Shown here piece by piece: positions 1,453 through 4,370 of a stretch of 18,560 nucleotides of DNA. The notes beneath the pieces were generated by a model. That model saw nothing but the letters and a program-made list of their open reading frames with translations. It ran no database searches and was not told the origin of the DNA. Source of the DNA: Pseudomonadota bacterium (lineage in GTDB: Bacteria; Pseudomonadota; Gammaproteobacteria; Burkholderiales; Burkholderiaceae); assembly GCA_021783435.1 (NCBI GenBank), contig JAJXUC010000074.1, forward strand, positions 1 to 18,560. Reading direction: 5' to 3'. Each line of letters begins with the position of its first letter. Position 1 is the stretch's first letter. The position numbers were made by a program, and so were the translations under genes.

Positions 1453-3717
1453 ATGGCCAGCCGCCCCAGCGCCTCCGCGGGCCAACTTTGGCGCCTGCCA
1501 CTGCTCAACACCGCGCTGGCCGCCACCTATGTCTTGCTGGCCTGGGGTGCCACGCGCAGCGATCCGTCGAACGCCGTCCTGTGGCCCTCGAGCGCCATCG
1601 CCGTCTTCGGCGTCTGGGTCCTGGGTTTCATGGCCGCGCCCGGCATCCTGCTGGGCGCCTATATCGCCAACGCCGAGGTCATCGGTTGGTCTGCGCAGGC
1701 AGCCCTACTCATCGCCGTGGGAAACACCGCGAGCGTGCTGTTCGCCTGGTGGGTCCTGCGGCGCATACGCCAGCCCTGGCGCGGCCTGCAGGACACCGGC
1801 GACACGCTCGCCTTCATCCTCACGCTCGGTCTGCTGGGGCCGGCCATCAGCGCCAGCGTCGGCGTGATCAGTTCCCTGCTCGCCGCGCCGCCGCGGCTTC
1901 ACGACATCGGCATGCTGGGGCCGGTGTGGCTGATTTCAGATGCCTGCAGCGTGCTCGTGTATGCGCCGATGCTGGTGCTGTGGTGGGAGCGCCGTCACGA
2001 GCGTCTGCCACGCCCGACCGTCGAATTCGTCATCCTGCCGCTGATCGCGCTGATCGGCGTGGCCGTGCTGGCCTTTTCGCCGCCCGCGCGGCAGGCGCTG
2101 CCGCTGGGCCTGGCTTCGCTCGCCTTGCTACCGCTGCTGTGGGGAGCGATGCGGCTGTCCATGCGCCTGGCCAGCCTGTTCATGGCCGTCCTGTTCACGT
2201 TGGCGCTGGTGGGCGCTGCCCTGGGCCTGGGTCCCATGATGGTTCTTCCGATCGACGAACGCGCCTCCGTGCTGCAACTCCTGGGCATCAGCCTGGCCTG
2301 CACGGTGCTGCTGGCCAGCAGCCTGGCCCAGGAGCGCAGTCTCGCGCTGCGCCAGCTGCGCGAGGCGAATGCGGGGCTGGAACGGGCCGTGGAACGGCGC
2401 ACCAAGGCCATGGTGAAAAGCCAGCGCAAGTTGCAGGAACAGCTGCGCTTCCAGGACTCGCTGCTGGGCGCATTGCCCAACCCCACGGCGTACAGCGCGG
2501 CCAACGGGCGGCTCGAGCTGGTCAATCAGGCCTTCACGCGGCTGTTGGAGCGCAGCCGCGATGCCTTGCTCGGACGCCGCCCCGCCGAGGTGTTCGAGGA
2601 CAGCCTGCTGCATACCTGGACCTCGATGGACCGGCAGCTGCATGCCGAGCGGCGCCCTCTGTCGCAGGAATGCAGGCAAGTGTCCTCGGACGGCGATGTC
2701 ACGGTGTGGATCGTCAACAAGGCGCAGGTCACGGATCCGGCCAGCGAGGAGCCTCTGGGCATCGTCACCAGCCTGCAGGACATCACCGAACTCAAACGCC
2801 TGCAAGAACAGCTCGAGCGCGATGAGCGGGGCTTGCGCTTCCTGGTCGAGGAGTCCCCGGTGCCGCTGGTCATCACCCGCGTGCACGATTCAGTCCAGCT
2901 GTTTGCCAATCGCGCCGCCGACGAACTGTTCCGCGCCCATCACACCGGCCGTTCCGGCAAGCTCTTGCGGGATCTGTGGGTCGAGCCCGCGCAGCGACGG
3001 TCGGTGGTCGAGCAGGTACTGCGCGAGGGCGTGGTGCGCGGGCTGGAGACGCAGTTCCTCCGCTACGACGGCAGTCCGGTCTGGCTGCTGCTGTCCGTCA
3101 CCCACACGCAGTACCGAGGTGACGAAGCCCTGGTGTTCGCCTTCAAGGACATCACGCCGACCAAGGAACGCGAACACACCCTGCGCGCCCTGGCCTACAC
3201 GGACCCGCTCACGGGCGTGGCCAACCGCCGCAGTTTCCTGACACGTGCCGCGGCGGCCCTGCAGGAGGCCAAGATTCAGGGCAGGCCCCTGGCCGTTCTG
3301 GCGCTGGACATCGATCATTTCAAACAGATCAACGACGTCTATGGGCATCCGACCGGCGACCGTGCGCTGCGCAGTTTCTCGCAGGTCTGCCAGCAGCTTG
3401 CACGCGACGATGCCCTGCTCGGCCGCCTCGGAGGCGACGAGTTCGCCATCGTCCTGCCGCGCAGCGACGACGGCGCGGCCTATGACTTCGCGCAGCGCCT
3501 GCGCCTGGCCGTGCAGGAGAGCGCAACGGCCGAGCACGCCCCGCTGCGCCTGCAGCTCACCACCAGCATCGGCATCGCACATCATCCCTGCGAACACATG
3601 ACCGAATGCGGTCTGGACGACCTGCTGGCCCGTGCTGACCAGGCGCTCTATCGTGCCAAGCAACGCGGGCGCAACCGCGTCGAACTCTGGACGGGGCGCG
3701 ACCCGGGTTCCGTGTAA
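1453..3717 (+). CDS. Membrane-bound diguanylate cyclase: MASE1, two PAS domains, GGDEF
   Basis: A 754-residue signalling enzyme predicted to make cyclic di-GMP from two GTP. Residues about 10-300 are a hydrophobic MASE1-type sensor with some eight membrane segments. A short basic coiled-coil linker follows (about 295-330), then two PAS domains (about 335-450 and 458-580), each closing on a DIT motif (SLQDITELK, FKDITPTKE). The GGDEF domain (about 585-745) has an intact active-site GGDEF at residues 660-664 and the expected DIDHFKQINDVYGH metal/nucleotide segment, so it should be catalytically active. The inhibitory I-site, normally RxxD five residues before GGDEF, reads RDDA: the Arg is kept but the Asp is lost, so product inhibition may be weak. 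No EAL domain is present. The ATG at 1453 was chosen because the hydrophobic domain begins right after it; its ribosome site is weak. The ligand sensed by MASE1 or PAS cannot be told from the sequence. Confidence 0.93.
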   Translation: MASRPSASAGQLWRLPLLNTALAATYVLLAWGATRSDPSNAVLWPSSAIAVFGVWVLGFMAAPGILLGAYIANAEVIGWSAQAALLIAVGNTASVLFAWWVLRRIRQPWRGLQDTGDTLAFILTLGLLGPAISASVGVISSLLAAPPRLHDIGMLGPVWLISDACSVLVYAPMLVLWWERRHERLPRPTVEFVILPLIALIGVAVLAFSPPARQALPLGLASLALLPLLWGAMRLSMRLASLFMAVLFTLALVGAALGLGPMMVLPIDERASVLQLLGISLACTVLLASSLAQERSLALRQLREANAGLERAVERRTKAMVKSQRKLQEQLRFQDSLLGALPNPTAYSAANGRLELVNQAFTRLLERSRDALLGRRPAEVFEDSLLHTWTSMDRQLHAERRPLSQECRQVSSDGDVTVWIVNKAQVTDPASEEPLGIVTSLQDITELKRLQEQLERDERGLRFLVEESPVPLVITRVHDSVQLFANRAADELFRAHHTGRSGKLLRDLWVEPAQRRSVVEQVLREGVVRGLETQFLRYDGSPVWLLLSVTHTQYRGDEALVFAFKDITPTKEREHTLRALAYTDPLTGVANRRSFLTRAAAALQEAKIQGRPLAVLALDIDHFKQINDVYGHPTGDRALRSFSQVCQQLARDDALLGRLGGDEFAIVLPRSDDGAAYDFAQRLRLAVQESATAEHAPLRLQLTTSIGIAHHPCEHMTECGLDDLLARADQALYRAKQRGRNRVELWTGRDPGSV

Positions 3718-3787: not shown

Positions 3788-3830
3788 CAAGGGGGGAGGA
3801 GACAACAACCATCGTCAGGCGGGGCCTGAT

Positions 3831-4109
3831 TTATTCCTTCTTCTCGCCTTCGTTTTTCTTCTTGTCGGCCTTGTCGTGTGACCCGGCCGGGGCGGACGCG
3901 CCATTCTTGGCTGCGTCATAAGTCATGGCTTGCATGCCGGCAGCCGGCATCGCGCCTTGGGCCCCACTGACATGGACATTGGCTTGTGCCGCGGCCTCGG
4001 CAGGCATGCCGGCGGCACGGGCCTGGCTTGAGACGAAAGCGGCCAACAAAAGAGCGACGCCGAAGCCGAGAGCGGATAGCGAGGGTTTGTTCAGAATGCG
4101 CGGGTTCAT
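3831..4109 (-). CDS. Small secreted protein of unknown function, probable QseF/sigma-54 target
   Basis: A 92-residue protein that I do not recognise as a named family. It begins MNPRILNKPSLSALGFGVAL, a positively charged start and hydrophobic core typical of a Sec signal peptide, with likely cleavage after the Ala-Arg-Ala near residue 32. The mature part of about 60 residues is rich in Ala, Gly and Met and ends in a highly charged tail (KADKKKNEGEKKE). There is no Cys in the mature part and no lipobox, so it should be a free periplasmic or exported protein. The start at 4109 is chosen over an in-frame ATG at 4229 for three reasons: AGGAG lies 6 bases upstream, the signal peptide starts there, and the predicted sigma-54 start site (about 4169) lies inside the longer frame. 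An intrinsic terminator follows, so the transcript is predicted to be about 410 nt and monocistronic. It sits directly downstream of qseF. Its role is unknown; envelope stress or homeostasis would be a guess from the regulator family. Confidence 0.8.
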   Translation of the reverse strand: MNPRILNKPSLSALGFGVALLLAAFVSSQARAAGMPAEAAAQANVHVSGAQGAMPAAGMQAMTYDAAKNGASAPAGSHDKADKKKNEGEKKE

Positions 4110-4120: not shown

Positions 4121-4179
4121 GTGATGCTTCGAGAGGTCTGCGAACCGGACCGGAATCCGTCATCGCGATGCCTTCTATA

Positions 4180-4196
4180 TGCACTTCCCGTGCCAG
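4180..4196 (-). promoter_or_regulatory. Sigma-54 (-24/-12) promoter of the small secreted-protein gene
   Basis: The minus strand reads CTGGCACGGGAAGTGCA. Compared with the RpoN consensus YTGGCACGrNNNTTGCW it differs at one base (GTGC for TTGC) and keeps the required GG-N10-GC spacing. The predicted start point is about 4169, giving a 5' leader of about 60 nt that includes the AGGAG site. It sits next to the gene for a sigma-54 activator and downstream of matching activator and IHF sites, which makes chance unlikely. Confidence 0.82.
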
Positions 4197-4213
4197 GCAA
4201 TTTTCATGTTTTG

Positions 4214-4226
4214 AATCAATGCGTTG
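4214..4226 (+). promoter_or_regulatory. Promoter-proximal IHF site
   Basis: AATCAATGCGTTG is a full match to the IHF consensus WATCAANNNNTTR. It lies between the -24/-12 element (4196) and the nearest activator site (4257), the position where IHF bends DNA so that a bound activator can touch sigma-54 polymerase. The same 13 bases recur in inverted orientation at 4325-4337. Confidence 0.72.
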
Positions 4227-4256
4227 CATCCGGCGAAGCGGCCACTGTCAGGGCCA

Positions 4257-4274
4257 TGTCGAATGTGCCCCTCA
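4257..4274 (-). promoter_or_regulatory. Degenerate third QseF/GlrR-type site
   Basis: On the minus strand TGAG-N10-GACA: the right arm is perfect and the left arm matches 2 of 4 bases of TGTC-N10-GACA. Alone it would not be called. It is listed because its centre lies 32 bases, about three helical turns, from the perfect site at 4289-4306, so both would face the same side of the DNA. Confidence 0.4.
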
Positions 4275-4288
4275 AACCGTGCGCGAAA

Positions 4289-4306
4289 TGTCGCTACAGC
4301 CCGACA
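4289..4306 (-). promoter_or_regulatory. Perfect QseF/GlrR-type activator site TGTC-N10-GACA
   Basis: The minus strand reads TGTCGGGCTGTAGCGACA, an exact match to the TGTC-N10-GACA motif described for GlrR/QseF in enterobacteria (for example upstream of glmY). It is centred about 128 bases upstream of the predicted start point, a normal distance for a sigma-54 enhancer. The gene for a GlrR/QseF-type activator ends about 120 bases away. Confidence 0.78.
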
Positions 4307-4324
4307 TCCAACAGGGCTAATTTT

Positions 4325-4337
4325 CAACGCATTGATT
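4325..4337 (-). promoter_or_regulatory. Distal IHF site
   Basis: The minus strand reads AATCAATGCGTTG, again a full match to WATCAANNNNTTR and identical to the proximal site but on the opposite strand. It lies between the distal activator site (4353-4370) and the perfect one (4289-4306), in an AT-rich patch that stands out from the GC-rich surroundings. Confidence 0.65.
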
Positions 4338-4352
4338 TTGTTTCTATTTTTT

Positions 4353-4370
4353 TGTCGCCTGAGAGCGACG
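4353..4370 (-). promoter_or_regulatory. Distal near-perfect QseF/GlrR-type site
   Basis: The minus strand has CGTC-N10-GACA, matching 7 of the 8 specified bases of TGTC-N10-GACA. Its centre is 64 bases, about six helical turns, from the centre of the perfect site and about 192 from the predicted start point. The arms can also pair as a short stem, but the neighbouring T run is on the wrong side for a terminator of either strand. Confidence 0.6.

Follow-up and report, generated by a model that had tools for sequence, protein, structure and literature searches.

A conserved QseF/σ54-type enhancer-promoter beside qseF in Thiomonas probably drives an sRNA-like, CU-rich transcript that doubles as the mRNA of an exported peptide

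The window analyzed here, the whole 18,560-nt stretch, whose genus we took to be Thiomonas, carries on its minus strand a gene for the response regulator and σ54 activator QseF (qseF, also glrR; 4429 through 5775). The translated protein matches the Pfam domains Response_reg (receiver) and Sigma54_activat (σ54 interaction), and its C terminus includes RNRTEFYRLLQKH; its best NCBIfam model is GlrR (NF011695) at 583 bits, which is below that model's curated cut-off of 763. QseF of the nearest relative genome (G001) is 98% identical over the whole length, and a close orthologue (E below 1e-230) is present in 27 of the 28 genomes of the genus, being absent from the matches for G017. The 28 loci compared below are the window and those of 27 relatives with qseF. 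According to the portions of the source available, QseEGF is widespread across Gammaproteobacteria, Betaproteobacteria, and Acidithiobacillia (PMC12691602); our partial search of mainly open-access literature found no description of a betaproteobacterial QseF target.

Immediately behind qseF, direct reading and pattern scans recovered, at the same minus-strand positions, all of the elements of a σ54 enhancer-promoter named in a preliminary description of this DNA. A first UAS of the form CGTC-N10-GACA (UAS1, CGTCGCTCTCAGGCGACA; 4353 through 4370, minus strand) is followed by a distal IHF-consensus match (4325 through 4337, minus strand), a perfect TGTC-N10-GACA (UAS2, TGTCGGGCTGTAGCGACA; 4289 through 4306, minus strand), a promoter-proximal IHF-consensus match that the scan reads on the plus strand (4214 through 4226), and a −24/−12 element with one mismatch (TGGCACGGGAAGTGCA; 4180 through 4195, minus strand). 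The geometry of σ54 promoters places the start of transcription about 12 nt after the GC of the −12 element, which here would be position 4169 on the minus strand. The motifs had been described as rare, and this is true of the IHF matches, two of which are exact in the 18.5-kb window against 0.06 expected. It is not true of the UAS type, with 7 matches at ≤1 mismatch against 5.1 expected, nor are matches of the −24/−12 type rare (10 at ≤2 mismatches against 13.0 expected). As neither the UAS nor the −24/−12 element is unusual in the window alone, the case for a promoter rests on conservation and comparison.

Two GTCG-N8-CGAC cores, 63 to 64 bp apart, are found in all 28 Thiomonas loci, with UAS2 in register throughout; this count takes the in-register site as the second core of L005, where a tied alternative exists, and an automated count without it gives 27 of 28. 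The −24/−12 element, with its GG and GC dinucleotides, is likewise kept in 28 of 28 loci and lies 93 to 115 bp past the start of the second core. An alignment of relatives, proposed earlier as a check on the promoter, bears it out fully for these elements and in part for IHF: the proximal match (≤1 mismatch) occurs in 22 loci, in 20 of which it lies 31 to 32 bp upstream of the −24 element, and is absent or weak in the other six, and the distal match (≤1 mismatch) occurs in 10 of 28. A half-conserved third copy of the UAS, claimed at 4257 through 4274, was rejected for want of conservation, third sites with ≤2 mismatches being present in 9 of the 28 loci at scattered positions. We also attach no meaning to the two IHF 13-mers being identical and inverted in the window, because they differ in the nearest relative (L001). 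On this comparison of aligned sequences the promoter is real and conserved; it is very probably under QseF control, and QseF and IHF would bind at the predicted sites. A search with the combined pattern found it at the qseF locus in 26 of the 28 Thiomonas genomes, together with five matches elsewhere, against seven for a reversed control pattern. Since the extra matches do not exceed the control, the qseF-linked site is apparently QseF's main target with this architecture, and weaker or differently spaced targets are possible.

Enterobacterial QseF sites are given, in the accessible text of two papers, as TGTN12ACA and TGTCN10GACA, and Proteus mirabilis is credited there with three putative QseF sites and two putative IHF sites (PMC6075780, PMC8745638). 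As far as those sources extend, the Thiomonas promoter resembles that of glmY in the Enterobacteriaceae in its palindromic QseF sites, IHF, −24/−12 element, linkage to qseEGF, and (predicted) short RNA product. The preliminary description held that the enterobacterial layout is kept here. For the QseF, IHF, and σ54 elements, which are conserved and qseF-linked, that view stands, but for position it does not: glmY lies upstream of qseE (PMC6075780, in the part available), whereas the Thiomonas promoter lies downstream of qseF. The glmY promoter has three UAS against two conserved in Thiomonas and, unlike that of glmY, the transcript of 22 of the 28 Thiomonas loci codes for an exported peptide as well.

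That another σ54 activator uses these sites, or that the motifs arose by chance, we consider extremely improbable. Matches to σ54 activators are many in each searched genome (up to 30 counted in one), and the likeness to enterobacterial sites is drawn from papers, so such a reading has something in its favor; the distribution of the architecture across the order speaks against it. A sample of 250 genomes of the order was searched with a strict pattern that ignores qseF, which matched 15 genomes, with no control match; a qseF immediately precedes 12 of the 15 sites, the exceptions being L113, L119, and L120. In the same sample a QseF orthologue was found in 102 genomes (E ≤ 1e-140). The 109 regions downstream of QseF comprise those of all 108 non-Thiomonas QseF matches and L029; seven regions were read from pattern-search loci, whose genomes are among those with a QseF match, and seven genomes supply two QseF-like matches each. 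UAS and a −24/−12 element at ≤3 total mismatches occur in 74 of these 109 regions, and in none of 109 reverse complements or 545 dinucleotide shuffles. At that threshold the architecture was not found in the remaining 35 regions; at four or five mismatches, 8 of the reverse complements and 32 of the shuffles match as well. Distances between UAS and promoter cluster near 71, 82, 93, 102, 113, 136, and 147 bp and are phased, with a resultant of 0.66 at a period of 10.75 to 11 bp (n = 79 sites, related genomes unweighted), as needed by an enhancer-binding protein acting via looped DNA. In one genome (G057) no enhancer-promoter was found behind qseF (L028), and a BON-like gene on another contig (L113) has one; here target and regulator may have become separated.

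The predicted transcript first offers a ribosome-binding site (AGGAG; 4116 through 4120, minus strand) and, from an ATG at 4109 through 4107, an ORF of 92 aa (3831 through 4109, minus strand) with a signal peptide recognized by inspection, the sequence A-AGMPAE, and a low-complexity Lys/Glu tail. The peptide has six homologues among 5.8 billion proteins in a search that requires shared five-residue words, matches no Pfam or NCBIfam family, and was seen here only in Thiomonas loci. Its constant part is the motif AGMP[AP][ED], close to where signal-peptide cleavage is expected; the motif is found in an ORF in 22 of the 28 loci. Against L001 the window ORF has a dN of 0.058, a dS of 0.424, and a dN/dS of 0.14; ratios are 0.07 to 0.33 in eight pairs from the window's clade and two neighboring clades, and 0.37 to 0.73 in six pairs from other clades (all computed with starts linked to a ribosome-binding site, which for the window, L001, L022, and L023 are downstream starts). 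The low ratios indicate that in the window's clade the ORF is a genuine gene, kept more loosely elsewhere, and the purifying selection in the window's and two neighboring clades indicates that the peptide matters there. The small signal-peptide ORF reported earlier behind this promoter is therefore upheld, both in its presence with a ribosome-binding site and in its selection.

These properties of the ORF are what would be expected if the promoter's output were the small exported protein, with a 3' end that is a mere terminator and with ORF-less loci as decayed copies. The order-wide use of the same slot to drive small envelope-type proteins also favors this reading, which we nevertheless judge unlikely; the looser selection in other clades is one argument against it, and the 3' end and the ORF-less loci supply the others. 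Less likely still is a dual-function mRNA whose peptide feeds back on the periplasmic QseG/QseE sensor, the RNA tail being a secondary regulator. The peptide gene occupies the genus's only repeated enhancer-promoter place, beside qseF, and a constant part near the signal-peptide cut would suit such a role, but 6 of the 28 loci do without the ORF while retaining qseF.

The 3' end of the predicted transcript, which we refer to as the RNA module, begins just 3' of the stop codon with a hairpin (TCAGGC-CCC-GCCTGA; 3815 through 3829, minus strand), continues with a CU-rich tract that is a predicted unpaired seed (TGTCTCCTCCCCCC; 3791 through 3804, minus strand), and closes with an intrinsic terminator (TTGGCCAAGC-GCAT-GCTTGGC-T8; 3762 through 3790, minus strand). 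A MASE1-PAS-GGDEF diguanylate cyclase gene (1453 through 3717, plus strand) converges on the transcript; in several Thiomonas loci (e.g., L009, L011, L024, and L026) a gene read as that of a DEAD-box helicase lies downstream instead. In all 28 loci the predicted transcript ends in CCCCCCTTGGCCAAGC, a loop of 4 to 5 nt, GCTTGGC, and at least six T, so that the stem and T6 of the terminator are invariant, as is the CCCCCC (C6) at 3791 through 3796. The alignment of the module has 29 invariant columns, including one run of 16 nt, whereas the qseF codon alignment of these loci keeps only 5 of its 126 fourfold sites unchanged and has no invariant run longer than 8 nt. The module pattern itself set the limits of the module sequences; a looser pattern also matched all 28 loci. 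A terminator stem is free to change in pairs and C6 lies outside the stem, yet both are invariant, from which we infer selection on the sequence itself. A plain terminator could do without an invariant stretch of 16 nt, and above all without the C6 outside its stem, which argues against the protein as the sole output.

The upstream hairpin is present in many loci with a sequence that varies between them. Its folding gives a mean z of −1.64 over the 28 loci against −0.11 for control windows, although five of the hairpin windows have a z above −0.4, among them that of the window itself (−0.33). Covariation in the hairpin was not above that of shuffles: one pair changed on both sides (10 of 28 sequences), which 147 of 500 shuffles reached. 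In the isolated module the C6 is predicted to be unpaired with a probability of 0.77 in the window and 0.95 on average over 28 modules, against 0.48 for the upstream bases. In full-length folds the probability ranges from 0.13 to 1.0, with C6 buried in L019 (0.13), L011 (0.19), and L018 (0.33). In the Lys/Glu tail, GA-rich codons (3831 through 3860, minus strand) partly pair with the CU-rich tract in a short fold, a possible masking of the seed that finds no support in the full-length fold, in which the C6 of the window is unpaired at 0.99.

The module pattern occurs in 25 stretches of an 84,980-genome collection, once in each and always on an apparent qseF contig. Outside Thiomonas the module was not found at qseF, either with the pattern over the 84,980 genomes or with an RNA model over the 250 genomes of the order. 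The RNA model matched 29 of these 250 genomes, in many through the terminator alone. Among its 11 full-length matches outside G001, nine are in QseF-bearing genomes, on other contigs or far away, and two (G114 and G170) are in genomes without a listed QseF match; given these locations away from qseF, we take none of the 11 as this module.

Six of the 28 loci (L018, L019, L024, L025, L026, and L027) lack an ORF with the motif, though unrelated short frames are possible in them, and all six retain the promoter and the 3' module. Their predicted RNAs are short (131, 143, 75, 101, 75, and 70 nt, respectively), and the −24/−12 element has no mismatch in five of the six, so that loci without the peptide keep good promoters together with the module, against what a series of decayed copies would suggest. 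In a tree of QseF, L025 groups with the ORF-bearing L020, L010, and L017 (support 100/98), and the other five lie inside a separate 15-row branch (100/100) as two groups whose mutual relation is weakly supported. Because the ORF is present in every larger branch, the branches of the tree indicate that it was lost at least twice, perhaps three times, and that promoter and module were kept on each occasion; a group statistic of one change for the ORF-less rows sets them against the outgroup alone and has no bearing on this number. Since relatives without the peptide retain both the switch and the tail, the RNA is probably a main product in its own right, and the RNA module is more likely than the peptide to be the constant product in Thiomonas. 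The earlier proposal of a protein in place of a small RNA finds no support in this comparison: the 3' module is invariant in 28 of 28 loci, 6 of 28 keep promoter and module with no ORF, and in another family of the order (f23, below) a short RNA is predicted in 14 loci.

We compared the module with known RNAs. No Rfam family matches the window at gathering level, and the module is below threshold for every family. GlmY gave no match at E up to 5 in positions 3700 through 4200, nor any in five ORF-less loci, and membership of that family was rejected on these grounds. The best match of the window's module is RF02278, a toxic sRNA of Betaproteobacteria; it scores 24.6 bits, where the cut-off is 50 (E = 0.0089 with 501 bases searched), and the CU-rich tract and the family consensus have TGTCTCCTCC in common. 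Among the matches listed, five genomes score 21.8 to 24.6 bits at the qseF locus. Other places in the same Thiomonas genomes match better (up to 33 bits, still below the cut-off), 10 of 14 control genomes also give sub-cut-off matches, and a separate full-score copy of RF02278 lies away from qseF in 28 of 28 Thiomonas genomes (two copies in G018). We therefore rejected membership of RF02278, the score being below the cut-off and not distinctive genome-wide. Matches of L018, L019, and L025 to SorX were sub-threshold (E of 0.7 to 2.9) and were given no weight.

The gene glnA is under σ54/NtrC control. GlnZ is described, in the available part of its source, as an sRNA with a conserved seed that RNase E releases from the 3' end of the glnA mRNA (PMC9731577), and the 3' end of the Thiomonas mRNA also carries a conserved predicted seed. 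The same text has GlnZ coming from the mRNA of a metabolic enzyme, whereas the Thiomonas module, whose release we only propose, follows an ORF that some species lack. As presented in the accessible parts of the relevant papers, S17 of Bordetella, related to RF02278 and bdhR1, is a short RNA that RNase E makes from a longer one containing a 32-aa ORF, and it acts through ribosome-binding sites as a repressor (PMC11722255). RF02278, bdhR1, and S17 share with the Thiomonas module an unpaired CU-rich tract, hairpins, and a terminator (PMC11722255, PMC5688073; again from the parts available), but the S17 promoter described there is of the housekeeping type, in contrast to the QseF/σ54-type promoter of the Thiomonas unit. 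A conserved putative seed and a terminator at an mRNA 3' end, as sought in an sRNA derived from a 3'UTR, are found here through conservation and predicted accessibility.

Taken together, we favor as probable the reading that QseF and σ54 drive an sRNA-like transcript that is rich in CU and, in the window, codes for an exported peptide as well, the module acting as a base-pairing regulator and the peptide being a second output; the base-pairing role is suggested by analogy. QseG and QseE would relay envelope signals, leading to phosphorylation of QseF, which would act on the two UAS while IHF bends the DNA and σ54 polymerase starts near 4169. The unit, on the minus strand, would start at about 4169 and reach 3762, roughly 400 nt in all, encoding the small exported peptide and ending with the hairpin, the unpaired CU-rich tract, and the terminator. 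The module would be freed from the mRNA or, in ORF-less species, be the whole transcript, and with Hfq it would base-pair with G-rich ribosome-binding sites. The peptide would be selected in the window's clade and dispensable in the genus.

We infer the processing of the module, its dependence on Hfq, the action of its seed, and its targets. A target search with CCAAGGGGG-N3-10-ATG in eight Thiomonas genomes gave 22 matches against 8 for the control. It returned no orthologous set at true gene starts; the sole orthologous set, of three loci, apparently lies inside a gene that we take to be argJ-like. The RapZ N-domain is found in 27 of 28 Thiomonas genomes, which makes a GlmY-like decoy role possible, the presence of RapZ doing no more than permit it.

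Across the order, the slot behind qseF holds other genes. Pfam families were tallied for the first ORFs of 67 of the 74 positive regions, leaving out four with no usable ORF (L034, L121, L153, and L189) and three with doubtful ORFs (L116, L142, and L157); start codons for these and for the motif ORFs were chosen by simple rules, and one protein may match several families. Among the families listed (25 of 27), BON accounts for 22 of the 67 ORFs, EF hands for 11, and the glycine zipper of the 17-kDa antigen type for 8, followed by glycosyltransferase-2 (6), MdoG/OpgG (3), CsbD (1), DUF3563 (1), and a PAS/histidine kinase match (1). By our own reading the glycosyltransferase-2 ORFs are OpgH and, by name, many of these outputs are envelope functions. 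In L116 (G202) the QseF promoter leads to a short ORF with three GGFGGTGAP repeats, ∼108 to 270 nt past the start of the −24 element, that is unlike the other outputs.

A second predicted RNA occupies the slot in order-family f23, where a conserved AGAGTGCGCCTTG-N-GGGG element is followed by a terminator. Its 18-mer is present once each in 14 of the family's 28 genomes, the other 14 being without the exact 18-mer. All 14 loci (L256 through L269) lie behind a QseF C terminus with UAS and −24/−12 at ≤2 total mismatches. The −24 element starts 49 to 120 nt before the 18-mer, and the longest frame with a start codon in the predicted RNA is 19 to 50 codons; with so little space and such short frames, no protein seen elsewhere fits, and a short peptide could. 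CTCCTCC occurs upstream of the 18-mer in 8 of the 14 loci. Four of the loci gave no Rfam match above the cut-off, and we regard the element as a candidate new sRNA family, unrelated to the Thiomonas module. Inspection by eye shows paired changes between loci in the stem of the f23 terminator.

The wider pattern here, one enhancer kept while its outputs are exchanged, is in our ranking the more interesting result. In a broader reading that we hold to be evenly balanced between right and wrong, the slot behind qseF is a lineage-wide socket for exchangeable outputs, in which one QseF/IHF/σ54 enhancer has been refitted with envelope proteins of the BON, EF-hand, and glycine-zipper kinds, genes for glucan synthesis, and two or more regulatory RNAs that are unrelated to each other. 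The CU-rich RNA of Thiomonas would carry a peptide gene that several species have dropped, and the GlmY-like logic from envelope sensor to sRNA would have persisted, or arisen again, in Betaproteobacteria with new RNAs. The analysis provides a concrete, conserved candidate QseF target in 74 of 109 QseF regions, with its operator and helical phasing defined, and predicts two new sRNA families. A transcript that loses its reading frame and leaves a bare regulatory RNA would bear on the origin of dual-function and 3'UTR-derived sRNAs.
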